From contig VCJN01000653.1 in NCBI GenBank assembly GCA_006384855.1, positions 1-64,000 on the forward strand: a stretch of 64,000 nt of DNA. The letters run 5' to 3'. Below the pieces are notes generated by a model, which searched no databases, was not told where the DNA came from, and worked only from the letters and a program-made list of their open reading frames with translations. Both the position numbers and the translations under genes were made by a program. Of this stretch, positions 5,883-60,377 are shown piece after piece. Origin of the DNA: Tetraselmis striata. Its lineage: Eukaryota; Chlorophyta; Chlorodendrophyceae; Chlorodendrales; Chlorodendraceae. Position 1 is the stretch's first letter, and the number at the start of each line of letters is the position of its first letter.

Positions 5883-8313
5883 ATGCCCACGCTCGCGCCC
5901 GCCATGGCATCCTGCTCTTATGGCGCCCATTGTAAGGCGTCAGATGGGCCGAGTTCAACGAGCCCTTTGCTCAAAGGGTGCGACACGGACGAGTGTCCAA
6001 ACGTGCTGCACCATATGTGCCAGGGGGAATACGAGGCGGCTCATCCTGAGGCGGCTCCAGAGGAGGTGACATACAGGTGCTTCCAATGCCTTACCCGTTC
6101 TCGCGGTAAGCAACAAGCACCGACGCCGCCCCCACCGGCCCTGCGGCTACCAACAAGACCGGCTGCTCGATCGAGCCCTCGCCTGTCTGGACGTCCGCCG
6201 CTCAGCCCACGCAGCGTGCCCGGGAGCTCGAGTGCCAACGTGACGACATCCCTGACTTTTTCCGAGGGCCAGCAGAAGGACCCAGAGCAGCACCTCGGCG
6301 ACGCGGCCCCCACGACGAAGCGTGGAGCCAAGCATGGCGTCAAGCGACGGAAGGGCGAGAAGCGCGCCTACATGAAGTGGGCCGATCAGGTCAAGACGAT
6401 TCAATATTACAACAGCTTCATTCAAGCAGAGCGGCCGAAGCTTGCCGACCTGGCCAAGTGGGCGACGGACCAGTTCAAGCTCGTCAAAGCTCCCTCTGTT
6501 GCTTTCATGAGCAAGATGATCAAAAACCGTGAGGCCATCATGCGTAAGTGATGCTGCTCTGCACTGTTCTATCTTAGTGTCATGCGGCATGCAGCCTCGT
6601 TGTCCGAACCATTCTATTCTATGCTTCCTAAACCTGCACATGTCTTTGCCATGCAGGTGACCACGGCACCTCAGTTGAGATGCACAATCATGGCGACCGT
6701 AAGCGCAAGCGCGTGGTTGGCACGAAGGAGCAATTGGAGCTGGAGAATGCCCTGGTTGCCTGGATAAGGCACCATGATGCCCCGCATGGTGGCAAGGTGG
6801 CTCTGTCCAATGAGAGGTTGAAAATGCAGGTGTGTGAGCTCGTGCCGGAACATGTACAGTTTAATTACGTGTGCAATGCCAGTGATGGCACGAGCTTGAT
6901 GTATGTTGAATTATGCGCAGGCAAAGACGATCGCAGAGCAGAAGGGCTTTGTGTTTGACCCAATGAAGTTCAACTTCTCCAGCAAGTGGCTCAACAGCTT
7001 CAAGAAGGCCAATAACATCAACCGAGTGCGCTTGTACGGAGAGGTTGAAGATGCTGACATGGCCAGCGTGGCTGCACAGAGGGAGTAGCTGCCCAAGATC
7101 CTGAAGAACTACAATCAGGACAAGATATACAACTTCGACAAGACAGGTAACTGTGCAATTCCATAAAGGCAAGTATATGTCGGAGTTGAATCCCCGAGGT
7201 GTTCTGTCTCTGAGCATGAGCTGTTCGTTTCTGCAGGTCTGTTGTATCGCATGTTGCTCAGCGCCGGTAATCTGGCGGGGAGGAAAAAGGGTCGCAAGGG
7301 TGGCAAGGTTGCGAAGGAGCGCACCACTGCTGGCCTCTTCTGGAATGCCACTGGCACAGACTTCTGGAAGCCCGTTTTCATCGGGAAGGCCAACCGCCCC
7401 CGGTGCTTTGGAAAGCACTCGAAGGGGGAGAACATCGGCGCGCGGTACTACAGCAACAGCAAAGCCTGGATTTGAGCTATTGTCTGGGAGGATGTGCTGA
7501 AGAAGTTTAACGCCTACTGCTGCTACGAGCTGAGCGACAGCGGCAAGAATCCGGGGGTGCTGCTCGCAGACAACGCGCCGTCACACTCCATCCCGCGCGG
7601 CGCCAAGTCCTGGAGCTCCAGGGATCCGCGAGAGTTTAAGGATGAGCAACGTGCTTGTGAGCTTCTTCCTTCCCAACTGCACGTCGATGGTCCAGCCGCT
7701 GGATGCAGGGTGCATCAAGACTGCCAAGGCACTGTTCCGGAAGCGACACATGCAGCGGATTCTTCGTCGACTGGAGATTGCAGCAGAATCTGCCGAGCCG
7801 CCCATGGTGAACTGCGATGTCCGCCAGGCGATTGAGTGGTTCATGTGGGCCCTGTCTCAGGAGCCAGCAACTAGCGTTGCTTATTGCCGGATTTCCACCA
7901 GGATCTTGTCCATGCTCCAGATTGAGGACCTGCGCACCGGTGGGCGCCACAATGGACGCGCTGCTAGGGGTGAGGTGCCGAACAGCTCCACTACCGTGCC
8001 GGCTGCTATCATTGACGAGCTGAGCGAGTTGCTTAGCGGTCTTGGCAAGCCACTGGCCAGTGACAAGGACCACCCTGTGAAGATGATTGAGGCAGCGGAT
8101 GTGGTCGACCAACCTATGGAGCGCGAGGTGTTTGATCCACCTGAGGGCGAGAGCTCACAGGATGAGGTGGACCCCGGGGCCAACAAGGGTGATGACCACA
8201 TTGATGGCGACCCCTGCGAGGAGGACGATGGCGCGGGCGGCGGAGAGATGATTGATGTGCAAGAGGTGGACACTGACGACGTAGATTCCACAGAAGCTGA
8301 TGCGCTTTCGTAG
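5883..8313 (+). pseudogene. pogo/Tigger-like DDE transposase, intron-containing, broken
   Basis: Spliced exons 5883-6543, 6657-6829, 6921-7146 and 7237 onward join in phase through GT-AG introns. The N-terminus is Cys/His-rich (paired CxxC and HHMC-type motifs), a possible zinc-binding module. The second and third exons resemble the CENP-B-type helix-turn-helix of pogo transposases (KRKRVVGTKEQLELENAL). The DDE core keeps all three acidic positions: Asp at 7137-7139 in NFDKTGLLYRML, Asp at 7569-7571 in LLADNAPSH and Asp at 7702-7704 in MVQPLDAGCI. Three lesions break it: TAG at 7086-7088, TGA at 7473-7475, and a frame change between about 7600 and 7641, after which the frame runs to the stop at 8311-8313. 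The C-terminal tail is acidic. Terminal inverted repeats were not found. Family assignment is firm; the copy looks recently inactivated. Confidence 0.92.
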
Positions 8314-24689: not shown

Positions 24690-27308
24690 CTACATGGGTG
24701 GATAGCTGGAGCAAGGGTCCGCACAGCAGGCCACCATCGCGCCCATGTAGCTGTCCGGCGCGCAACGCAGCCCCCAGCCCGAGCCGCGCACCACGTAGTG
24801 CCCTGGCACGACCGGCCCGGCGCCGTCGCTGTCGTCGTGGTAGTCGCAGCCGCGGTGCGTCCACACGTGGTGGTAGTTGACGTAGCAGCCGGCGTCGAAG
24901 AGAGCGCCGCCCTCCACCTCCGCTGGCCCGCACAGCCGCGCACCGCGAGCCTCGCACGCAGCCACGGCGGCGGCCGCGTCCACGCCGTACGTGCACGGCA
25001 GCGGCGCCTCGTCGACGGGAGCCGCGCCGGCGCGGACGCTGGTCATCGTGCACACGGCGCCGGACCAGCGCTGCCGGAAGTGCGGCAGCTGCGCACAGCA
25101 CGCCGCCGACTGTGGCGGCGGCGGTGGCGGCTGTGGCGTGGCTGTCGGGGTCGCAGGGTTAGGTGACGCGGTGGCCGTCGCCTCTGGCGTGGGCGTGGGT
25201 GTGGCGGTGGGCCCGTCAGGGCGCGGGTTGACCACCGGGAGCCGGCGCTCGGCCCCCCAGCCGGCCATGGTCTCCGTCACCCAGTCGATGACGGTGCTGA
25301 CCTTGGCGTACACGCCCGGGTAGCGCGGGTCGGCGCAGCCCTGCCCCCAGGAGATTACCCCTACCTGCAGGGCCCACGGGGAGGGGGGGGGGGGGGGGGG
25401 GGGGGGCATCAGGCTGGATGATGGCACTGCTGGATTGCAGATTAGCGTGGGAATCTAGGGTTTATCCATGGGATTCAGGGTTTGGGGTTTGGGTATTAGG
25501 TGCACTCTGGAGTGGCTGGCGTGCGCCATGTGGGGCAAGCACGCAGCGCCCTTTCGCAGCCCGGAGGCATCCCGTGCGAGGATCTCGGGCAGGATCCACA
25601 TTAGGTGCCGGGTTGCTGATTGCGCCCGTGTCCACAGGAGGCCACTTATTGCGGGCTTTGTGCTTGTGCCGTAGAGCTTTGTTAGGCGCTGCGGGCGTAA
25701 CAGCCCTTCGACAGCGACCTGACCTGCGGCGCTGACTGGACCTGAAAGGAGCTCATCTGGCCATGACCAGCCAACCTGAGATGATCGTATTGTTTTGGGG
25801 TGTGATTCGCCCCTCGGAGGTGGTGCTACGGGCGTGAGCCGATTCGCTGCCCACCTGCGCAGAGCCCGCAGCGGGTTGGCGCGCGGCAGGCGGGATGCGG
25901 CGCACCTGCACGTCCTCGCCCGGGTTGCCGAGGCGCAGCAGCGGCCCGCCGCTGTCGCCGCGGCAGGCGTCGCGCCCCGGCTCGATGGCGCACATCATGG
26001 CCTCGTTCACCAGCCAGCCGCCCTGCTGGCACACCGGGTCCTCCGCCGGCAGGAAGCCCACCTCCGCCACCATCAGCTCCGCCGCGGTGCGCGGCATCGC
26101 GCTGGGGCTGGGGTCCATGATGCCCCAGCCCAGCACCGTCAGCGGCTCCCCCGCCGCCAGGGCCTCGTACGCGTGGCCGTCGTCCAGCAGCACCGGCTGC
26201 TGCGCGGACAGCGTGGCCAGCCGCAGCAGCCGGAAGTCCCAGTCCGGCACCGCGCGCTGCACGCTGTAGCGCGGGTGCGCCTCGTCGTCCGCAATCACGT
26301 GCTCCTCAAACAGGCCATACTGCTCGCAGCGTCCGACAAAAGGCTCGGCACATCAGCAAGTCACACCCAGAAGGGGGGGCAGAGAGTGAGAATAGGCCTG
26401 CGGGCGAGCCGGTGGGTAGGTGGCCGCCCACCTCATCGTCCAGGCTGTGCAGCGCCACGTACGCGAGTTCAAAGTTGGAGCAATGGCCGGCAGTCAGCAC
26501 GACGCCGGGCGCCACCAGCGTGCCGCCGCACAGGAAGCCGCCGCCGTAGAGGTAGACCATGTAGGGGAAGCGCCCGCGCGGGGCGCCCAGCCCGCCCACA
26601 ATGCGCGGCTGGATGCGAGGCATCTCGGCGCCTTGCTCCGCCTCCTCCTGGGGGCATGGGGCAAGACAACAGGAGGGGGCAGGTGTAATCAGGCCCAGCA
26701 CCGAACTGCCCTGCTCCTGGCGATGCTGTCCGCAGTAGCACCAAACAGCCCAGGCGCCCAGGCGGCTGTCACTCCATGCCTCGCCCAGGCGGCTGTCACT
26801 CCATGCCTCTTTCTCCATGTCTCTGTGTCATGCTGGCTGTCTTCTATTCTATCCCCCCTATTGAGTGGTCTACGTAGCTAATTTGTGTCTGAATCGGTTA
26901 GAAATACTACATAAGTGTGGCTCGAGACAGTGCTGCCGCCGGCGCACATGGGAAGTCTCTCAGCGCCGCCGACATCTAGAAAAGCTTAAGAATGGACTGC
27001 TTTACTAAAACTGTACTCGTAATGGTACTCCCCCAAAAAATCAAGTGCGGTACGCCGGGACAATACGCGGCCGTGCGCACCTCCTGCGGCTCCGTCGGCA
27101 CCGGGGTCACCAGGAACACCGGCTTATGCGCCGCCACCGGCACGCCCCACACCGCGCCTTCCCCCAGCTGGTCGCCGCTCACCAGCCCGGATTGCCGGGG
27201 TGGCCCTGGCCGTCGCTGCGCCGCGGCGAGGTCGAGACGGAGCAGCAGCAAAAGCGCCAGCAGCGCCCGCGCCGGCCGGGCCGGGGAGCACCTCCGCCCG
27301 TCCGCCAT
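24690..27308 (-). CDS. Secreted trypsin-like serine protease with Cys-rich C-terminal module
   Basis: Four minus-strand exons, all phase 0 (27308-27081, 26647-26432, 26319-25906, 25364-24690), encode about 510 residues. Residues 1-30 are a signal peptide with a run of leucines. A short propeptide ends before IVGG at about residue 92. The peptidase S1 triad is intact: His in LTAGHC (about 131), Asp in [10 protein letters not shown] (about 176) and Ser in GDSGGP (about 271). [10 protein letters not shown] puts Asp at the S1-pocket position, predicting cleavage after Arg or Lys. The catalytic domain ends near [10 protein letters not shown] Thr/Pro-rich linker ([15 protein letters not shown]) leads to a C-terminal Cys-rich module with [12 protein letters not shown] and a GC...VWT pattern, resembling modules in other secreted algal proteins; I cannot name it with confidence. 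The third intron has a 24-nt C-run on the sense strand close to its acceptor. Confidence 0.95.
26755..26808. repeat. Exact tandem duplication of 27 bp
   Basis: Two perfect 27-bp units, each starting CGCCCAGGCGGCTGTCACTC, lie within the first intron of the protease gene. The lack of differences points to a recent slip or duplication. Confidence 0.9.
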
Positions 27309-30210: not shown

Positions 30211-31946
30211 TCACAGGTCTCCCGGCTGGACGGGGTGGCGGGGCGGCTCGCCACGGCGCGCCGCCCGCCAATTTTCAAGCAGCACCCCGCAGCTCGCGGC
30301 AGTGGTCATCCGCCCAGCAATGTGGGGTGACAGCCGCACGCGCGGGTGGTGCCACAGTGGGGAGCCCGGCGGCGGCGGCTCTGGGGAGGTCACGTCAAGC
30401 ACAGCCTCGCCCAGGTGCCCCGCGTCCAGCAGCGCCAGCACGTCCTCCTGCACCACCACCTCCGCCCGGCCGCAGTTGACCAGCGATGCGCCCGCCGGCA
30501 GCATCCGAAGCCGTGAGGCGTCCAGCAGCCCGCGGGTGTCCTCCTTCAGCGGCAGAATGGCCACCAGCACCTGCGCCACCGGCAATGCACTCACGCCACA
30601 ACAGTAAGCACTCAAGCAAAGCCATCCGTGCTCTAGAAACCGCACGTCTTCCTGGACGTTCGGGTGCTGTGAATCGTGAGGTGTGCCCCAACCAGTCAGT
30701 TTTCGTGTTTAGATGCATGCGGGGGGCGTCCGGCCAGTTCAACGCCGGCAAAGCACGATGGCCACTTTAATGACGAATATCGTCGCAACACGCCATCAAT
30801 TAAGGATTTTAAGCCACCGATTGTCAAGCGACCGCGCCCGCGACCGTCATGCAACTAAACTGCTCGGTGTGAAGCGCTTAAGTGCAACACATCCCGCATC
30901 CAACCACACTGAATTCTGCCAAACAACATGGAAACACTGCGACATCGAACAACGCAAAACGCTGTCCGACAATGCGCGAAGGCACTGAGAAGAACAGGCG
31001 CGGTTTAATTGTCCCTGCGAGATACTCAGCACGCCCGCGTACCGTTTCTACAGCAACACGCACTTACTGGCCTTGGTACCCGTACTGGTACGAGTTCGTC
31101 TGCCATCCCGTTGCTGAAGCTGCACAGCACGTCCGAGGATCACCCACACACACACGTGCTCGCGTGGCCCGGACCCTGAACCGTGTGCGCATCACTCATC
31201 CATCCCGCCTTATGCGGGATGCGGGCCGCTTTTAGGCGGCTTGCTGTGTTGATTTTCTAATTCTGGGGAACTGCACTTTTGTAATTCACACTGGTTCTCA
31301 GCACGCTCGTGTACCGTTTCTACAACACGCACTTCCTGGCCTTGGTACCCGTACTGGTACGAGTACTGTATGAACCACTGATTGGCCTTAATGTGGTTTT
31401 GATGGCCGTGCTCACTTGAAACCCGGAATATCGGCAAAGTCATCATCGTGGCGATATTCGATCGTGGCTGGCGCGGCGCCACTGGTGGTGGACACCGGCG
31501 CATTGGGCACGTGCGCCCTGCTGTCTGTGTCAAGGTGCGCCATGGGCAGAAGAACGACGCCGTACGGGTGCGTCACACACAGCCCCGCGCGCGTCTGCGC
31601 GGCGGGCTTCCCACCTGCGCCCTCCGCAGAAAGGGCTCCAGGCTGCCGCGGCCCGCCATGACCTCGCAGCAGCTGCTGGCGGCAGGGCGGGGCGACCGCG
31701 ACCACCCCACGACGCGGAAGCCTGTGCGCACCAGTGCCGCCGCCGCCGCGGAGCCACAAGCGCCAAAGCCCAGCACGCCCACCGTCACGTCCTGCGCCAG
31801 CGCTCAGTCAGCGCAATAATATGTATAAAGTTACAAGCAGAGGTATTAATGTACTTTATTGCCTCTTTTCCGGGCATATAATTATATGTATACATTCATA
31901 CTTACATAATTGCATACATATGTACATATTGAATATGTATATACAT

Positions 31947-31984
<38 letters not shown>

Positions 31985-32878
31985 ATGATAGATAGTCCTG
32001 ACGATGATGTGTAGAAAGAAAAACTAAAATATATTAAACAATTAAACTTGACTGTTACAGGAGATTCTGGCACGCAGAGCACAACTTGTGCAGATGTGCA
32101 GCACCACAGCTATGACGCCCTCCATTGCGCCTCGTGCAGTGGATACTCCCTCTCTCTCTCTCTCTCTCTCTCTCTTGTGCTCGATGTCTGCAGATGGTGC
32201 GTCAGCCATAAAATGCCCTGTGAAAGGGAGGCCACTGGGCAGTCACAGTTGTGCCGATCATCCAGACATAAGGTCCATCCAATGGCTGTTCATCATGCCA
32301 TCCCGCAGAGCGGAACGTGCCGTGCTGTGCTGTGCGAGGGAGGGATGCAAGGTCGTGCGGAGGTGGGCGGGGGAAGCGGGGGCCGCGGCGTCCTACCTGC
32401 GGGTCGCGCGGGAGGCCGGTGGCGGTGGGCTCCCACTGTCCGGCGCGCTGCTGCCGCGCCATCTCGGGCGCGCCCAGCGCCAGCGACAGCAGCGCGTGCA
32501 CCACGAAGTGGCCCATCCGCTGCGGCGCCAGCGGGTCCAGCAGCCGGCACAGCGCCACCCCCGGCGGCAGGTCCCCCGCGGCGCGCAGGTGGTCCGTGCC
32601 GCTGGCCATGCCGCAGACGAGGCGCAGGCGGTCGCCGGCAGCGGCCCACAGCCCCGGCGGCGGGTCATACACAAACAGGGCGTCGGCGCCCGCCACCGCC
32701 GCGGCCGCCGCCGCCTCCGGCTCGTCCGCCGTCCAGACCGCCACGTGCGCCCCCGGCGCGGCTGCGGCCAGCCGGGCGGCGATGTCGCGCCCCCAGTCCA
32801 CGTTCATGGGCCCGCCGCACACCACAGCGGCGCGCGCGCCGTGCAGCACATCCGCGCCCGAGCCCCCAGCCTGGCCGC
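30211..32878 (-). CDS. GhrA-like glyoxylate/hydroxypyruvate reductase (D-2-hydroxyacid dehydrogenase)
   Basis: Exons 32878-32397, 31791-31615 and 30570-30211 encode about 338 residues covering the whole GhrA-type fold. The enzymes reduce glyoxylate to glycolate or hydroxypyruvate to D-glycerate with NAD(P)H. The first exon holds the substrate-binding half, the second the Rossmann motif TVGVLGFGACGS, and the third the catalytic Arg (NCGRAEVV), Glu (TSPEPPP) and His (LSPHIAG), ending at a natural C-terminus. The first exon begins at a splice acceptor, not at an ATG: the only in-frame ATG (32807) would cut off the first beta-strand. An upstream exon is therefore needed, and the nearest coding sequence upstream on this strand is the aminotransferase. 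Introns are 605 and 1044 bp, with (TG)16 at 31952-31983 and (TC)12 at 32151-32174. Confidence 0.9.
31027..31367. repeat. Direct repeat pair inside the reductase's second intron
   Basis: About 31022-31095 and 31295-31367 share TCAGCACGC, GTACCGTTTCTACA and CTGGCCTTGGTACCCGTACT; only a few bases differ over roughly 70. The copies end in the GTAC-type array seen elsewhere in the window. Confidence 0.85.
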
Positions 32879-33084
32879 CTGCGAGCAAGGTTGGACAGAG
32901 CAGCAGCGATTACATACGTAGAGCGAGAAAAACAGGCTGCTGGGAGTAAAATGACATGCTACATATGTATCACATCATATATCATACATCATATTGTTAT
33001 GTATGTTCTTACATATGTACACATAAATTGGTATGCCTACCCGTGTATATATGTTACAAATGTATGATTGCACATGCTGCATAT

Positions 33085-35125
33085 TCAAACGCGCAAATAT
33101 ACTACTCCATATATGTTTATTACGCAATTTGAAAATGTCTTTGACGCAGAGGGGGGGCTGTTAGCGTTCATGTGCTGCGCCACGCCATGGGGTGGCGCGC
33201 CTGGGCTGGGCGAGGTCTGGCCCTGCGAGGCGGCCTGGAAACTCTGGGCGCACGCCACGATGGCGCGGCCCGCCGCCCGCATGTCCTCCGGCGCCGCCAG
33301 CAGCCCCACACGGATGAAGGGCGCCAGCTCCGCGCCAAACGCCTCCCCCGGCAGCACGCTGAAGCCGTGGCCGTCCAGCAGCGCCTCCGCAAACGCGAGC
33401 CCACCGGGCGCCCCGCTCGCGCTGCACACGTCGACCAGCACAAACATGCCTGCCTGCGGGACGATGGGCCGCACCAGCGCGCTGCCGCCCAGGCCCGCCA
33501 GCAGCGCCGCCAGCCGCGCGGCGTAGCGCGCCGCCTCCGCGTTGCCCGGCGCCAGCAGCGGCATCACCGCCAGCGCGGCGTGCTGCGTGAGGGGGGAGAC
33601 GCCGTAGAGCACCGCCTCGGACACCGCCTGCGCGGCCGCCTGCAAGGCCGGCGGGACAGCCATCCAGCCAACCCGCCAGCCGGGGCGCAGCCCAATCTGC
33701 GGTAACACACAAAAGTGGCCCGGGGGGGGGGGGGGGGGGGAGGGGGGGGGGGGGGCGTATTGGGTCAGCCGATTACAGCCTGCTCAATGCAAGTTACAAT
33801 GAGGCAAGGCGGAGAGGCGCATGCTGGGCCAACATGCAGGGGGAGGCTCTTTGGACGGCTATTGGATTCACACTGCACCGCGCGGCAACCTCCTAAAGCC
33901 CCTGGTCCCGGCATTAGCCCCTTGGAGGCATGCCCAGGAAGGTGCTGCTGGGAATGGTGCGCCGGCGAGGCCACGGCTGCAGAGAGGGCGGAGGCGGAGC
34001 ATGGCCAGCGGCCTTCCTGGGGTGGCGAGGAAGGGGGGGGCTACCTTGGAGAAGGAGCCCAGGCAAATGGCGCGCTGGCAGAGGCCCGGCACGGCGGTGC
34101 AGCTGCGGAAGAGGCGCGCCTGCGGGTTGTCGCCGTACACCAGCGCGCCGTACACCTCGTCCGCGATCAGCGTGACGTCGTGCCGCTCGCATATGGCGCC
34201 CAGCTCCGCCAGGGTGTCGGCGCCGATGAGGTGGCCGGTGGGGTTGTGCGGGTTGGTGATGAGGATGGCGGCCGCGGCGCCTGGGTGTGCCGCCAGCGCG
34301 GCGTCCAGGCTGGCAGGGGACAGTCGGAAGTCGTCGGACGCGGGCTGGGGCACCGCCAGCAGCCGGCCCCCGGCCATGGCGACGGTGTGCTCGTACGTGG
34401 CGTACAGCGGCGTGGGCGTGAGAACCAGTGGGGCAGACCCTGCTGGGCGAGTGAAGGTGCGGAGAGGCAGACCCCATCATGCACCGCCTCAGCAACGCTG
34501 CACTGCCACGTGCCCAATGCAAATCAATACTGCCGCCCCGTCACGCAATCAGAGTAAGTCGCCGCCATCCCACAAACCATCCCTACCCATGTCGCCACCC
34601 TGCTATGGATAGCGAGCGCCCAATAATCCTGCTAATTCCCTCCTCCCCTTTCCTCCACTCTCGTCATCCGTTTAAGCGTGTCTCTTCTGTCGAAACCCTA
34701 AACCCAAGGTGGCCGGCCGCTTAGCACAGTCACTGTGCGCCATGGTCGGCTCGACCGCACCCAGTCCCCAGCCCCTCGGCTCTCCGGCGCCACCCACCTT
34801 CCGGTGCCCCGCCTCGGCAAGCGCGCTCGCGAAAGCGGCGGCACAGCATCGAGACAGCGATGAAGAGCGCCGTCTGAGCGCCGCAGGTGATCGACACGCA
34901 GTCCGTCCCCGCCGCGCCAAGCCGCTCCGCCAGCGCCGCGCGCAGCTCCGGCAGGCCCAGTCCCTCCGCGTAGCCCTCTTCGCCGCGCGCCACGGCGGCC
35001 TGGACCGCCTCCAGCGCGGCGGGCGCGGAGGGGGTGTCCGGCTCGCCCATCCCCAGCAGCACCACCGCCTCGCCCGCGGACTTCCGGGCGGCCGCCAGCC
35101 GGTGCAGAGCCCACGGGTTGACCAT
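33085..35125 (-). CDS. PLP-dependent class I/II aminotransferase
   Basis: Exons 35125-34798, 34439-34045 and 33696-33085 join in phase (1, then 0), giving about 444 residues if the last exon reads to its TGA. Fold-type I features in order: VNPWALHRL and LLGMGEPDTPS near the N-terminus, GYAEGLGLPELRAAL, TNPHNPTG, ADEVYGALVY, and GSFSK with the PLP-binding Lys at the exon junction followed by PGWRVGW. The substrate is not deducible. The start at 35125 fits the family, but an organelle-targeting exon upstream cannot be excluded; an Arg/Ser-rich frame lies there in another phase. The last about 35 codons (after CAQSFQAAS) go beyond the usual family end and look like linker or intron. The GhrA-like exons begin only 206 bp downstream on the same strand. 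The second intron carries 19- and 14-nt C-runs (sense) close to its acceptor. Confidence 0.9.
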
Positions 35126-47296: not shown

Positions 47297-48340
47297 TCAG
47301 CCCATGGTGTCGGACAGCTCGACGCGGTACTTCACCGCTGCAGTTCGTACTGGTGCCGCACGTACAACCGGTAGTTGGTGGCCGTTGCCGGGAAACATGG
47401 ATAGCGTAGCACTTACGGCCCCTCGGCGCAGGTAGACCCATGCCGCAAGGAAACGCGGAATACAGTCATGGGCCAGTGAGGCATGCCGATCATACCTCGC
47501 CCGTCCTGCCGTCCCGGCCGGAACAATCCGGTGCACGGCACCACCGTGAGCTCCTCCACTGCCATCTCGGTGAGTGCATGGTGCCACGCCTTGTCCTCCC
47601 ATCGCGGGGCGACGACGGTCGCCACTGCGCCACTCTGCGCAGCTTCTGCACGAGGTCGTGTAGCATGGGCCAGGGTGCGTTGCACCAGTTGTGCACAAGA
47701 TGAGCCGGGTGGCCTGCCGGGAGAGCCGGTTCAGCTTGTCTGCCGGTGAGTAGAACATGCCGGACGCTGAGTCGATGTCCACCCCCAGGTGCCTGCCGAT
47801 TTGGCAAGGCTCCCAAAAGCCCTTTGTGGGGTTCCATTGCAGCCTCGAGGCGTCGAGGAGGCTGGCGAGCCGTTGACGGAGGTGGAGCGCCTGCTCCATC
47901 GATGGGGAGAAGAGGAGGAAGTCGTCCACGTAAGGTAGGATGCACGCTTCCTTCCACATGGTCCGCCGGAGGCAACGCTTGCTCCGTGTGGGCTGCCTAG
48001 ACGATGAGGGGGGCTCGGGCTCGGGTTTCCGCAGGTAGGTGATGAATACTTGGGTGAGCGTGACGAAGTAATAGGGCGAGAGGCTCCAGCTCATTGGCAG
48101 ACCCGCAAGCATGTAGAGCTGACCTCGGACGTCCACGGTGAAGTAGTCTCGGTCCGCCTCTGCGATGCCTAGAGCATAGAAGCCGTCTTGGAGGTCGAAG
48201 GAGAGCATGCAGTCTCCCTTTTTGGTGAGGTGGCGCACTCCCAGTAGGGTCTCCATCTTGAGCCGCTTGCGCACACAGTAAGAAAAAGATGCTGCTACTG
48301 AGTGCATTTTTCTAGTACTATATGCAGAAGTTGTAGTCAC
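47297..48340 (-). pseudogene. DIRS-type reverse transcriptase, RNase H missing
   Basis: The frame shows the reverse transcriptase motifs in order: FDLQDGFYALGIAEADRDYF (motif A), GLPMSWSLSPYYF (motif B), LPYVDDFLLFSPS (the YxDD catalytic box) and IGRHLGVDIDSASGMFYSP. After TRLILCTTGA the frame loses similarity. The expected RNase H is not found, and the downstream segment (PRWEDKAWHHAL) reappears in another frame at about 47640-47460, so both a deletion and a frameshift are inferred. The 5' part (gag-like) is also absent; only about 140 bp separate the frame from the right terminal repeat. Confidence 0.85.
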
Positions 48341-48476
48341 AAAATATACGAATGTAATACGATGTAATTACGAATTTTTGGTTGAACACTTGCAGTTAAT
48401 CTTTTTGGGCAAGTAGGGGGTGATATACCCTAGCACCCTCTGTTTCCGCACGGTCGTCTGACGACGACTGTAGTTT

Positions 48477-50948: not shown

Positions 50949-52228
50949 ATGCTGTCTGCGCAGCCCACCTCCGCGCTTGCGCGGCGCGGAACCCTTGCCG
51001 GCGCGGCCTTCGTTGCCGTCGTGCTCCTGGCCGCCTTCTCGCTCGGGAGCGCCAAGCCCGACTTGACCTACACCAGCAAGGTACGGCCAGCCCAAATTTC
51101 GACCCAGGCGCTGGCCTCTCCTGAATATGGAACGCATCCCAGATCGAGCACGTTCTGCGCTGCTGCTGGTCTCCCACCAAACTCTGCATCACGCTCGCGT
51201 ACCAAAGCCCGTACCGTGCTTGCCCCGACCTGTTTTTTGTCACGCGGGCCAGCGCGGGCAGTGCCTTTCTGCGCTCTGCACACATTTTTCCAGTGCTAAG
51301 CACTTCTTAAGCTTCATGTACCTCACATAGGCACACCAAGCGCATTGCAGAGGTTAGGCCAGGCGGCCCACTTATCCTTCAGCTGCTGGCTGCCTGAGGC
51401 GCTTGCGAACTGTGTTGCGGCGCAGGTCTTTTTTGACATTGAGATCGATGGGTCACCAGCAGGTGCGATTTTGCTATCGCTGCCCTCATTCCAGCCTTGG
51501 ATGCCCGAGCTTAAACCCACTTGGCAGGGGGTAAACTGCTTCTAAGCCTGGATGATTTTGCGCTGAAACTGCAGGCCGTGTCGTGATGGGCCTGTACGGA
51601 AACGTGGTGCCAAAGACTGTGGAGAACTTCCGCGCGCTGTGCACTGGTGAGAAGGGCGTGGGCAAGAGCGGCAAGGAGCTGACCTACAAGGGGTCCAAGT
51701 TCCATCGCGTCATCCCCAAGTTTATGCTTCAGGGCGGCGACTTCACCCATGGCACTGGCACCGGCGGCGAGTCCATCTACGGCATGAAGTTCAAGGTACG
51801 GCGTGGGAGATGGTGGTTTTCAAAGCCGCGCCGGTATCACCCATGACAACACTGACAGCATGCTATGCCCGGTGCAGGATGAGAACTTTGAGCTCAAGCA
51901 TGAGGGACCCGGCTACCTCAGCATGGCCAACGCTGGTCCGGACACCAACGGATCCCAGTTCTTCATCACCACTGTGAAGACCGAGTGGCTCAACGGCCGC
52001 CATGTTGTGTTTGGCAGGGGTATGCAGCCTTTACTTGCAGCACGCTTTCATCCGCTCACGGTTCGACTTGCTCTCAGGTGCATGATGCGAGGCATGGAAC
52101 TGACACTTCTGCCCCCCGGTCTCACAGTTATCGAGGGCATGGATGTTGTGTACGCTGTTGAGGCCGTCGGCTCGGGCAGTGGCAAGACCTCCAAGACCGT
52201 GACCATCGCTGACAGCGGTGAGCTGTGA
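50949..52228 (+). CDS. Cyclophilin B-type peptidyl-prolyl cis-trans isomerase (ER/secretory)
   Basis: Five exons (50949-51080, 51426-51462, 51575-51795, 51878-52019, 52128-52228) close in phase to 210 residues. Cyclophilins isomerise Xaa-Pro bonds during protein folding. Residues about 12-35 are a hydrophobic signal or anchor segment ([17 protein letters not shown]). The domain follows: [51 protein letters not shown] (catalytic Arg, Phe, Met and Gln), [20 protein letters not shown] (includes the cyclosporin-contact Trp) and GRHVVFG (active-site His). The [19 protein letters not shown] insert is the usual secretory-type spacing. The protein ends IADSGEL; the last residues only faintly resemble an ER-retrieval signal. 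The second exon is just 37 nt. No promoter word is obvious upstream, where the LTR element ends about 400 bp away. Confidence 0.97.
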
Positions 52229-57514: not shown

Positions 57515-60377
57515 ATGAAGCCCGCTGTGATACTTTGCGCGGTCCTACTTGCAGCGGCCACGATAGCCTGTGCGGCATCTACCGATAGGTGCAAACTCCT
57601 TCTACCTAGTACTGTAAGTATGACGGCGCCGCTTGCGAGCGGGTTGTATGACCACCTCTGACAAGTGACGGCATCGTGTGCGTGCAGCCGTAAGAACTTG
57701 GAGGAGTTAACACCACTCGAAGTCACTCGGTGAGCCACTGACACCAGCCCATCCCCATTAAACCCATTTTCAGCAGTTGCATGGTCACGACCAGTGATCG
57801 CGGATCGCCCGCCTCCTGAACCCAACAGTCAGCACCGCCTCTGAAATGTGGCCACCCCTCCTTTGTCCTGTCTTGCGCCGCAGCTCCGGCAAGCTGATTG
57901 TCAAGTACTCAAGCGAACCCAAGAAGGCTTCCTGGCCGGAGAAGTACAAGATCGCCAACCCGCTTGAGGGCGAGGCCGAGTGGTGGCCATACCGGGGCGA
58001 GTCTTTCGAGATTTACTCAAACCCCATCCCGCTGAAGTACGCACAGGTCGCCTACCAGTTCCATACGGGCCTGCTGCTGCCGGAAGACTTCAGGAAGAGG
58101 TGCGCGCGCCCATGCAACCAGCCTTGACTCTACCGTTGGCCCAGCCTGCGGCATACTTGAATAAACATATATGTAACTCCCCTGCCCTGCGGAACTCACC
58201 GCCAGGTTCCACGGGAAAGACGTTGCGTTCACGGGCTACGAGATCAACGTCGTGCGCTTTGATGAGGACGGCAATGAGGAGTCCGTGCCCAGCTTTGATG
58301 CGTACAATCATCACTACGTCATATACATGAAGGGCGCCAACTGGACGGTGTGATGCCCCCCTCCACCCCTTTCCAGCATGACGTGCGCCAACAGGGCAAG
58401 CGCACTGCCTCGCTTGTACTGATATCACGGAACTGGCTCGCTGCACAGGATGAATGCACTGGGCGGTGGTGCCCTCCGGGCGGCCTCCCAAGTGGCGAGG
58501 CAGCCAATCTGGGGCAGGTTCTGCGGCGCTCCAGCAATGATCACCTCAACATCCAGATGTTCAGTGAGGGCAATGGCAACGAGCACCGTGGATCCTTCCA
58601 TGGCTACCCAAAGGGCTTCTCCCAGGTGAGCTGCCTATCGGCTACGTATTGGGATAACAATAGGTAGTCGTAGTCGTACAGGGATCATGACAATCTGTGT
58701 CTCCCCAACTGACACCCTGCTGCCTGCCCTTCTTCCGTCCATCCCACGCCCACCCTCCCACAGATCCTCCACTCCCCGCACTCTCTGGACCCCTTCTTCC
58801 ACCTCATCAACACCAGGTGTGTATTATCCAGGCTGCCCGCCATGCCGCCAGCTGTGCCCGTGAGTGGGCAACGTGGATGACAGTGCCTTGCCGTGTTCTG
58901 CAGGGGTGGGGGTGGCCGCGGTGGGGTCGGCAGCTCCCTGCTGCCAAGGTCAAGCAATGCCAAGCCAGATGCGAGGTGAATATGGCCGCTGAATGCAAGT
59001 GTCTTGTGCATCAGCTCCTTCTGCTATGCTACCCCACACCTGCCTCGAACCCCCCTCCCCTGCAGACAGAGCGCCCCATCTTTGATCCCTCCCCCCCCTG
59101 CTCCATTGCGGTCCTGTTAGATCACAACTCTATGCTTGGCGCAATGCTGGACGGCAGGTACTCTGGGCTGATTGAGTGCCCATGCACCACTCGTCGCCAG
59201 TTCGACCTCGAGAAACTCACCATCGACGGCAAGGCCCCAGAGATGGCCTTCGGTGCCTGCCGGGTGAGCTGTCCTGCGTGACATGCTGCAGGGCTCATTT
59301 GACATGGTCGAGAGAGGCTATCGTCTGCCATCCGAACTCGATTCCCTGCCCCTGACCTTGCACGTGCTGCCTTGGGACCGCGCAGCAAGAGATTGCGCAC
59401 CAGAATAACCCTTCCTGCGAGCTGGAGACATATCGTGGGGGGCTGCGATGCTGCGGCGACCAGATGGTTCTGCTGGACGAGGACCAAGAGGTGAGCTATC
59501 GTGATCAGTAATGGCCCATTGTCTGATGTGCTCTCTCTCTCTCTCTCTCTCGTTCTTTCTCCATATGCACAGTGTAGGTAGACACCCTTGCGGGGTGTGA
59601 GGGAGTGGGCCTGTCTGCTAGGATGCGCCCGGCCTGGACGTCTTCTACTTCAAGATGCGTTGGTGGTTTGAGGACCCCGCCAAGGTCCCCTCCAAGAACC
59701 TCTTCCGCATGTTTTGGGAGACAGAGGACCGCAACAACGAGTACGACATCCCGCAGTGCGCACCAAAGTCCAAGTCGGTGAGCGGCTGTGCTGAAGGGCA
59801 GAGACTTTCTGTCACTATGTACTGCGCCGGTAGGTGTGCTGCCCAGTCTGGTGCTGAACCCTCCGACGCTTTGGTTCGTCAGTGTGTGCACACCCTCATC
59901 AATCGCTTCACCGTCAAGGAGCTGTGCGAGGTCTGGACCTGCGGCGACAGGCCGGTGGGCGAGGAGGGCTTTGATCTGATCTTCGCCGGCCCGCACCTGC
60001 ACGTCGGCGGCATCTCCATGGAGCTGATCAACGCCGACACAGGCGAACAGCTGTGCATCGGCGCGCCCGAGTATGGCGACAGTGACGAGGCCAGGAATGA
60101 GGAGGGGTGAGTGTTGTCCGGTCCATCCGCTGCGCTTGCCACTGCCAGGGGTGGTCGCATGGTGCCATTGCTGACGTGTGCATCGGTGGTGCGACGCAGG
60201 TATGTGACGTCCATCCCTCCGTGCCTCTGGAGCCACGAGGACCCCGGCTTGCCCAGTCCCCCGCGCCTCTTCAACGAGACACGCCTCATCTCCATCGCCA
60301 AGTACAGCACCGACCCCCAGCGCTGGGGCGCGATGGCGCTGTGGCAGATGCGCGGCGTCTACGTCGATGAGGAGTGA
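57515..60377 (+). CDS. Stress up-regulated Nod19 (SURNod19) domain secreted protein
   Basis: Ten exons are proposed: 57515-57588, 57884-58099, 58206-58347, 58449-58625, 58764-58816, 59066-59263, 59386-59490, 59622-59777, 59883-60106 and 60200-60377. The first encodes a signal peptide (MKPAVILCAVLLAAATIACA). SURNod19 hallmarks in order: YNHHYVIYMKGANW, GSFHGYPKGFSQ, a Cys-containing IECPCTTRRQFD segment, GGLRCCGDQ, VFYFKMRWWFEDP, LIFAGPHLHVGGISMELIN, CIGAPEYGDSDEARNEEGYV and GAMALWQMRGV. The family is known from plants and algae as stress- or nodulation-induced secreted proteins; its biochemistry is unclear. All junctions close in phase except one: 58764-58816 ends in phase 2 whereas 59066 needs phase 0. 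A small exon is probably missing between them (a candidate lies in 58910-58975), or a base is lost in the C8 run near 59090. Confidence 0.9.

Follow-up and report, generated by a model that had tools for sequence, protein, structure and literature searches.

A predicted aminotransferase–2-hydroxyacid dehydrogenase fusion gene in the green alga Tetraselmis striata

Two enzyme halves on one strand

We analysed a 64,000-nucleotide (nt) stretch of DNA from Tetraselmis striata (contig VCJN01000653.1, here C510:1-64000; hereafter the window), part of a 224-Mb draft genome of 2,903 contigs. Between positions 35125 and 30211, the minus strand of the window carries coding sequence for a class I/II pyridoxal phosphate (PLP)-dependent aminotransferase and, directly downstream, for a D-2-hydroxyacid dehydrogenase resembling the bacterial reductase GhrA (hereafter the reductase). 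The aminotransferase half matched PF00155 (class I/II PLP aminotransferase) with 145.7 bits against a cut-off of 19.7, and the reductase half matched PF02826 (D-isomer-specific 2-hydroxyacid dehydrogenase) with 147.5 bits against a cut-off of 25.1. These matches and a re-reading of the open reading frames (ORFs) agree in coordinates, strand and content with an earlier interpretation made from the letters alone (hereafter the sequence-only reading), which had raised the possibility that the two halves form one enzyme.

The aminotransferase ORF begins at ATG 35125, ends at TGA 33087-33085 and comprises 1,335 nt when spliced. Exon 1 (34798..35125, minus strand) opens with this ATG and ends in phase 1 at the donor AAG|GTGGGT. 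Exon 2 (34045..34439, minus strand), with acceptor CCCAGCAG and the phase-0 donor AAG|GTAGCC, contains N175, D203, Y206 and K241 (SFSK) of the PLP site. Exon 3, which in the preferred model spans 33201..33696 (minus strand), encodes the end of the domain with R370 and the first part of a linker, ...FQAASQGQTSPSPG. All five residues were invariant in the four aligned aminotransferase sequences; we take K241 to be the catalytic lysine, N175, D203 and Y206 to contact the cofactor, and R370 to bind the carboxylate. Three roseobacter enzymes aligned end to end with the algal aminotransferase at 35-39% identity. They stop where the algal protein reads SFQAASQ, whereas the algal ORF goes 45 codons further, and the last aminotransferase exon thus overruns the family end, as the sequence-only reading had stated.

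A gap of 206 nt (33084-32879), given with the same length and strand in that reading, separates the aminotransferase stop codon from the first reductase exon. The reductase is intact across three exons. Exon 1 (32397..32878, minus strand) encodes the linker residues GQAGGSGADVLHGAR followed by the start of the domain, and ends at the phase-0 donor CAG|GTAGGA; exon 2 (31615..31791, minus strand) encodes the nucleotide-binding motif GVLGFGACG, which contains the GxGxxG pattern, and GWSRSPR; and exon 3 (30211..30570, minus strand) encodes the catalytic R, E and H positions and ends with TGA 30213-30211. R254, E283 and H302, presumably the catalytic Arg, Glu and His of the reductase, were invariant in three of three aligned sequences. 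Two GhrA-type proteins that align with the reductase at 36-38% identity start 13 residues inside the algal exon. The first in-frame ATG of exon 1 falls within the first strand of the domain, as placed by alignment, and upstream of the exon the frame reaches a TAA before any ATG, which bears out the earlier claim that this exon begins at a splice acceptor with no usable start codon. The second reductase intron holds a high-copy repeat of about 200 bp (31095-31300) that is 97-98% identical to at least 39 other places in the genome (40 of 2,206 candidates scored).

Coding end and splice sites between the halves

The tail of the unspliced aminotransferase ORF (33085..33150, minus strand; the last 21 codons and TGA) is not coding-like. 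Its G+C content at third codon positions (GC3) over 33150-33088 was 0.29, compared with 0.91 in 3,929 training codons. The same stretch scored -7.98 bits per codon, and the lowest 17-codon window of both genes scored -7.44, these windows having been drawn from the aminotransferase and reductase themselves, which were also within the codon training set. Among 30 distinct gene ends the aminotransferase ORF had the lowest GC3, the 29 others (the reductase included) ranging from 0.62 to 1.0; the latter derive from 24 antenna-protein, nine chaperonin and four dehydrogenase loci plus the reductase, with identical ends merged, and in this set many antenna genes are close paralogues and one end (L053) may be wrong. 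Two ends outside the set, from ORFs that extend more than 130 codons past the domain (L002 and L008), had GC3 values of 0.67 and 0.76. Six further loci outside it (L046-L051), in which the first stop falls inside the match or follows a frame that is broken or partial, gave 0.33-0.9 before the stop, and three of them fell below the 0.62 floor (0.33 for L048, 0.48 for L047 and L051). Since the last 21 codons are not coding-like, the coding sequence probably leaves this exon by splicing before about position 33150, rather than ending at TGA 33087.

Genes for chaperonins, kinesins, dehydrogenases and antenna proteins in this genome supplied the reference donors. From 78 exon pairs (27 + 51), about 20 of which were dropped as unresolved or duplicate, 57 distinct GT donors were hand-picked; two donors of a first set of 21 were omitted from the second set. 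These donors carried G at position -1 in 55 cases, at +3 in 44 and at +5 in 41. Nine GT sites occur in 33300-33087 (six in phase 0, two in phase 2 and one in phase 1), and each reached the score of at most one of the 57 reference donors; the lone phase-1 site (33242) was very poor. The GC donor at 33200 (CAG|GCGCGC), in phase 1, obtained a flank score of 8.0 (first two intron bases unscored), equal to or above that of 53 of the 57 GT donors, and sits 7-8 codons beyond the bacterial family end. Scores this high were found at six of 13,454 GC dinucleotides in the window and at four of 2,318 coding GC sites (17.6 kb of coding sequence), and about 0.014 such donors would be expected by chance among the eight phase-1 GC sites of the tail. 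On the other side of the gap, the phase-1 acceptor 32878 (CAACCTTGCTCGCAG) scored 6.7, the values of 21 known acceptors being 1.1-10.0; only approximately 3-5% of AG sites on the minus strand of the window score as high. A second acceptor at 32870, in phase 0, was weak, with a score of 2.1.

Joining 33200 to 32878 would remove a GC-AG intron of 322 nt (32879..33200, minus strand), with the phase-1 donor CAG|GCGCGC at 33200 and the acceptor CTCGCAG, whose last base is 32879. Conditional on this intron, a coding sequence of 2,238 nt results, with a single stop at its end and a product of 745 residues. The spliced protein retains PF00155 at residues 21-377 and PF02826 at 535-711; the linker between the complete domains would read GQTSPSPGGQAGGSGADVLHGA, and the peptide across the predicted joint FQAASQGQTSPSPGGQAGGSGADVLHGAR. 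The proposed intron changes from GC-rich on its 5' side to AT-rich on its 3' side, as does the 605-nt reductase intron 32396-31792; the three remaining introns of the locus lack an AT-rich 3' end.

Because both sides of the gap independently call for splicing, and because donor 33200 fits in phase, place and domain limits, the balance tips towards fusion, and we consider it probable that the aminotransferase and reductase are encoded as one fused protein through this GC-AG intron. The model is one nuclear gene (35125-30211, minus strand) of six coding exons, whose product would be a single two-domain enzyme with an N-terminal class I/II PLP aminotransferase (approximately residues 1-399), a Gly/Ser/Pro-rich linker of about 22 residues and a GhrA-like D-2-hydroxyacid dehydrogenase. 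The fusion suggested in the sequence-only reading is thereby favoured by the ORF end and by the donor and acceptor scores, but by a different route, a phase-1 GC-AG intron in place of the second acceptor and a GT donor in phase 0. As far as it went, that reading assigned the phases correctly for the GT donors and for acceptors 32878 and 32870, but it overlooked GC donors, among which 33200 is in phase 1 and excellent. A gene of this sort may be annotated as two by gene finders that take no account of GC donors.

Other ways across the gap were considered and set aside. The phase-0 GT donors paired with acceptor 32870 were rejected, as all of these donors are poor. Donor 33253, in phase 2, matches neither open acceptor. 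Skipping aminotransferase exons 2 and 3 would keep the frame (exon 1 ends in phase 1, as does acceptor 32878) and is implausible, leaving only a quarter of the aminotransferase domain.

Points against the join and other readings of the gap

Several observations weigh against the fused gene. The join is itself a prediction from sequence. The reference candidates were ranked by their likeness to the consensus, so the donor set is biased towards good donors and the poorness of the GT sites is exaggerated. GC-AG introns are rare in this genome, with one clear case in 58 exon pairs when GC donors were allowed, and this rarity takes away much of the force of the good donor at 33200. The clear case lies in an aldehyde dehydrogenase gene (L191, G000:C2494:96900-97700; ATGGAG|GCAAGA); it shows that introns of this class are used in the genome and in that respect counts for the fusion. 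The best GC option exceeded the best GT option in seven of 51 pairs (L153, L155, L156, one in L175, one in L182, L185 and L191); L191 alone, with a residue difference of 0 and a poor GT alternative, was counted as clear, and for L175 and L182 the GT donor was taken. The 51 nt just past 33200 are still moderately coding-like in frame, so composition does not fix the exact point of exit. Moreover, no relative with both domains (a PF00155-type aminotransferase and this type of reductase) was found in the bacterial loci and plasmid records described below, and the two families were paired in no bacterial locus examined.

The last of these observations also fits two separate neighbouring genes, in which TGA 33087 would terminate the aminotransferase, its 3' untranslated region (UTR) being short and AT-rich, and the reductase would have a short or unseen first exon of its own. 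What speaks most for a separate aminotransferase gene, and also against fusion, is the motif TGTAA (33054..33058, minus strand), a likely poly(A) signal in this genome, which lies 26 nt past the TGA in an AT-rich flank like that of many antenna-protein genes; additional copies occur in this flank at offsets 71 and 170. Of 24 antenna-protein genes (L022-L045), 18 have TGTAA 6-93 nt past the stop; the count for all 30 loci compared is 19. Its weight is reduced by its sparse occurrence at other gene ends and by its copies in an intron: it stands within 93 nt of the stop in only two of 15 chaperonin and dehydrogenase ends and is absent from the flank of eight of these, it is absent from the 900 nt after the reductase stop, and four copies lie in the AT-rich reductase intron.

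The gap does hold a phase-compatible exon with an ATG, a candidate first exon for a separate reductase (33013..33082, minus strand). It would start at ATG 33082 and end at 33012 with the phase-1 donor TAT|GTAAGA, which reached none of the 57 reference donors; the alternative donor CGG|GTAGGC at 33040, in phase 0, reached six of 57 and would serve only with the weak acceptor 32870. Two genes would, in addition, have to fit a 3' UTR, promoter, 5' UTR, first exon and intron into 206 nt. Colinear monocistronic genes in two other green algae have median spacings of 3,415 and 2,518 nt (PMC11291117, excerpt); beside these medians the gap is short, which would count for fusion. A separate aminotransferase is predicted to have the tail TFSNCVINIYGVVYLRV. 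The GC3 of 0.29 at the end of its ORF contrasts with 0.62-1.0 in the 29 other gene ends. Taken together, we regard two separate genes as unlikely.

An even smaller share of our confidence goes to a broken join, in which the phases would result from missing or wrong bases, introduced either by faulty assembly or by recent damage at the 5' end of the reductase. Misassembly could affect a run of seven C in the tail (33157-33151) and the AT-rich stretch that follows it; no second copy was found in the genome for comparison, and the gap was unique in a search that skipped simple repeats. Set against this, the other exons and splice sites are ordinary, the catalytic residues are kept, and a fitting splice exists without any change to the sequence.

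A bicistronic messenger RNA of the green-algal kind, with one transcript and two proteins, the second made by leaky scanning or re-initiation, is highly improbable: the gap is near the Chlamydomonas inter-ORF median of 183 nt and an ATG lies 2 nt past the aminotransferase TGA, but the loci described have a short first ORF (median 291 nt in A. protothecoides) and depleted upstream ATGs (PMC11291117, excerpt) and each ORF of such a locus would need a start and a stop of its own, whereas here the first ORF has 1,335 nt and several ATGs, the reductase exon has no ATG, and the reductase ORF would still need a spliced first exon with a poor donor.

Relatives, genomic surroundings and known systems

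Neither half of the predicted fused enzyme has a close relative elsewhere in the genome. The nearest other aminotransferases are only 26-33% identical, and the next reductase is 36% identical over a long stretch, with one 40-residue piece at 50%. In the collections searched, the nearest relatives of both halves are mostly proteobacterial and approximately 30-45% identical. The best match of the reductase half in the PDB is 5vg6, a D-isomer-specific 2-hydroxyacid dehydrogenase. The GhrA model NF012013 gave 131.1 bits, below its cut-off of 403, and the cut-off was reached by none of the 21 NCBIfam models listed for this half. For the aminotransferase half, the methionine aminotransferase model NF006569 gave 123.8 bits, below its cut-off of 420, and none of the 25 models listed (69 matched) reached its cut-off. 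With no listed model reached by either half, serine, which the sequence-only reading had offered as a substrate, finds no support.

Bacterial gene neighbourhoods were examined at 80 loci of reductase relatives (L073-L152), the best 80 of 548 confirmed candidates, of which 66 span at least 9.6 kb. A relative of the algal aminotransferase was found in none of the 80 at E ≤ 1e-3; as a control, the same query recovered three roseobacter loci at E ~1e-43 or better. The best of the 80 at E ≤ 10 were L078 and L085 (E ~0.01), the match in L078 being part of a class III aminotransferase gene. At least 80% of the fused protein in one place was found in none of 1,110 matching plasmid records, and none of the pattern matches in viral contigs codes for a protein related to either half. 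Among the 80 loci, 27 contain a class III aminotransferase gene (assigned by PF00202 for L078 and L020), an incidental hint of a conserved bacterial pairing; in 24 it follows the reductase downstream in the same orientation, and 18 of these genes start no more than about 410 nt past the point where the reductase match ends. As 11 of the 27 loci are from Variovorax, they are not independent. In bacteria this type of reductase thus seems to be coupled to a different class of aminotransferase, a finding in favour of a shared task but not of a common descent of the pair; the partnership may therefore have arisen more than once. In the three roseobacter records examined, no reductase of this type is annotated beside the aminotransferase, and in two of the three a 5-guanidino-2-oxopentanoate decarboxylase adjoins it; these neighbourhoods hint at varied aminotransferase substrates, and no more than that.

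Elsewhere in the window are part of a DDE_1 transposase (7534-8313; PF03184), trypsin-like protease exons (24693-26352, minus strand; PF00089), a retroelement reverse transcriptase (47297-48367; PF00078), a cyclophilin exon (51788-52228; PF00160) and a SURNod19 exon (59622-60110; PF07712). Rfam and transfer RNA scans of the window gave no matches. In the genome at large, 63 matches to PF00504 (chlorophyll a/b-binding protein) were found, which mark it as that of a green alga. Five antenna-protein matches on a single contig (L028-L031 and L033; G000:C1767) are nearly identical and lie within some 58 kb, perhaps as a tandem array. An uninterrupted GhrA-like frame (L006, G000:C1698:7922-8449) lies on a 32-kb contig with GC-rich flanks (0.71-0.72), which may be bacterial contamination of the assembly.

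The proposed enzyme would convert an amino acid into its 2-oxo acid by transamination in the first domain and then, in the second, reduce this with NAD(P)H to the D-2-hydroxy acid, a coupling that would keep the oxo acid from loss or back-transamination. From the sequence we infer splicing of the GC-AG intron, activity of both domains and their sequential action. D stereochemistry and NADPH use are predicted from the family and the GWSR motif. If the two halves are fused, the second domain would act on the oxo acid that the first one makes, so that the fusion itself would name a pathway, and two enzymes would become one testable step from amino acid to D-2-hydroxy acid.

Candidate roles, if the alga is marine, include the first two steps of dimethylsulfoniopropionate (DMSP) synthesis and a glycerate-forming side path of photorespiration. 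There is a slim chance that the gene encodes a fused methionine aminotransferase/4-methylthio-2-oxobutyrate (MTOB) reductase, taking methionine through MTOB to D-4-methylthio-2-hydroxybutyrate, the hydroxy acid of that route being the D form; this suggestion is made because the algal DMSP pathway starts with these two reaction types. The transamination route begins with methionine aminotransferase followed by an NADPH-linked MTOB reductase (PMC5395565 and PMC11306096, excerpts), and the reaction types thus come in the same order as in the algal fusion, whereas methionine as substrate has no evidence at this locus. For Tetraselmis, there are reports of the intermediate 4-dimethylsulfonio-2-hydroxybutyrate (DMSHB) (PMC5395565, excerpt) and, in T. 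striata, of a clade B DSYE that is active (PMC11306096, excerpt). Neither excerpt names a verified algal gene for the first two steps. A fused DMSP enzyme of later steps, the bacterial DsyGD, combines a methyltransferase and a decarboxylase (PMC11306096 and PMC5395565, excerpts).

Among systems with separate proteins, bacterial GhrA-type glyoxylate/hydroxypyruvate reductases (NF012013/PRK15469; PDB 6oxn) have nucleotide-binding and catalytic motifs in common with the algal reductase, and PDB and GhrA-type bacterial relatives are approximately 36-41% identical to it over most of its length. They stand alone, whereas the algal reductase is predicted to be fused, and it scores so far under the GhrA cut-off that it is not filed as GhrA. 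The roseobacter PLP aminotransferases (e.g., WP_011241850.1) likewise share the PLP-site residues with the alga and stand alone; the algal sequence differs from them by an insert of about 14 residues and by lacking 13 residues near the start. Bacterial neighbourhoods such as L076-L078 and L020 resemble the algal locus in having a PLP aminotransferase gene close to the reductase gene, but the genes are separate, the aminotransferase is of class III (PF00202) and the order is reversed.

The closest parallel found to the proposed fusion comes from an oomycete. We take the dehydrogenase half of that enzyme to belong to the D-2-hydroxyacid dehydrogenase family and its phosphoserine aminotransferase to class V. 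A literature search, with sources partly in excerpt, returned no published fusion of the algal kind, and the nearest was this oomycete protein, Ps142688, a phosphoglycerate dehydrogenase–phosphoserine aminotransferase that carries out consecutive steps in one polypeptide, as is proposed for the alga (PMC2705460, excerpt). A table in the same excerpt gives the aminotransferase half a bacterial clade association and places the dehydrogenase with metazoan sequences. The oomycete fusion runs from hydroxy acid to amino acid, in serine synthesis, and has the dehydrogenase as its first-named domain, whereas in the alga the class I/II aminotransferase is predicted to be N-terminal and the reverse direction is proposed. 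The domain order of the algal protein suggests a course from amino acid to 2-oxo acid to D-2-hydroxy acid.

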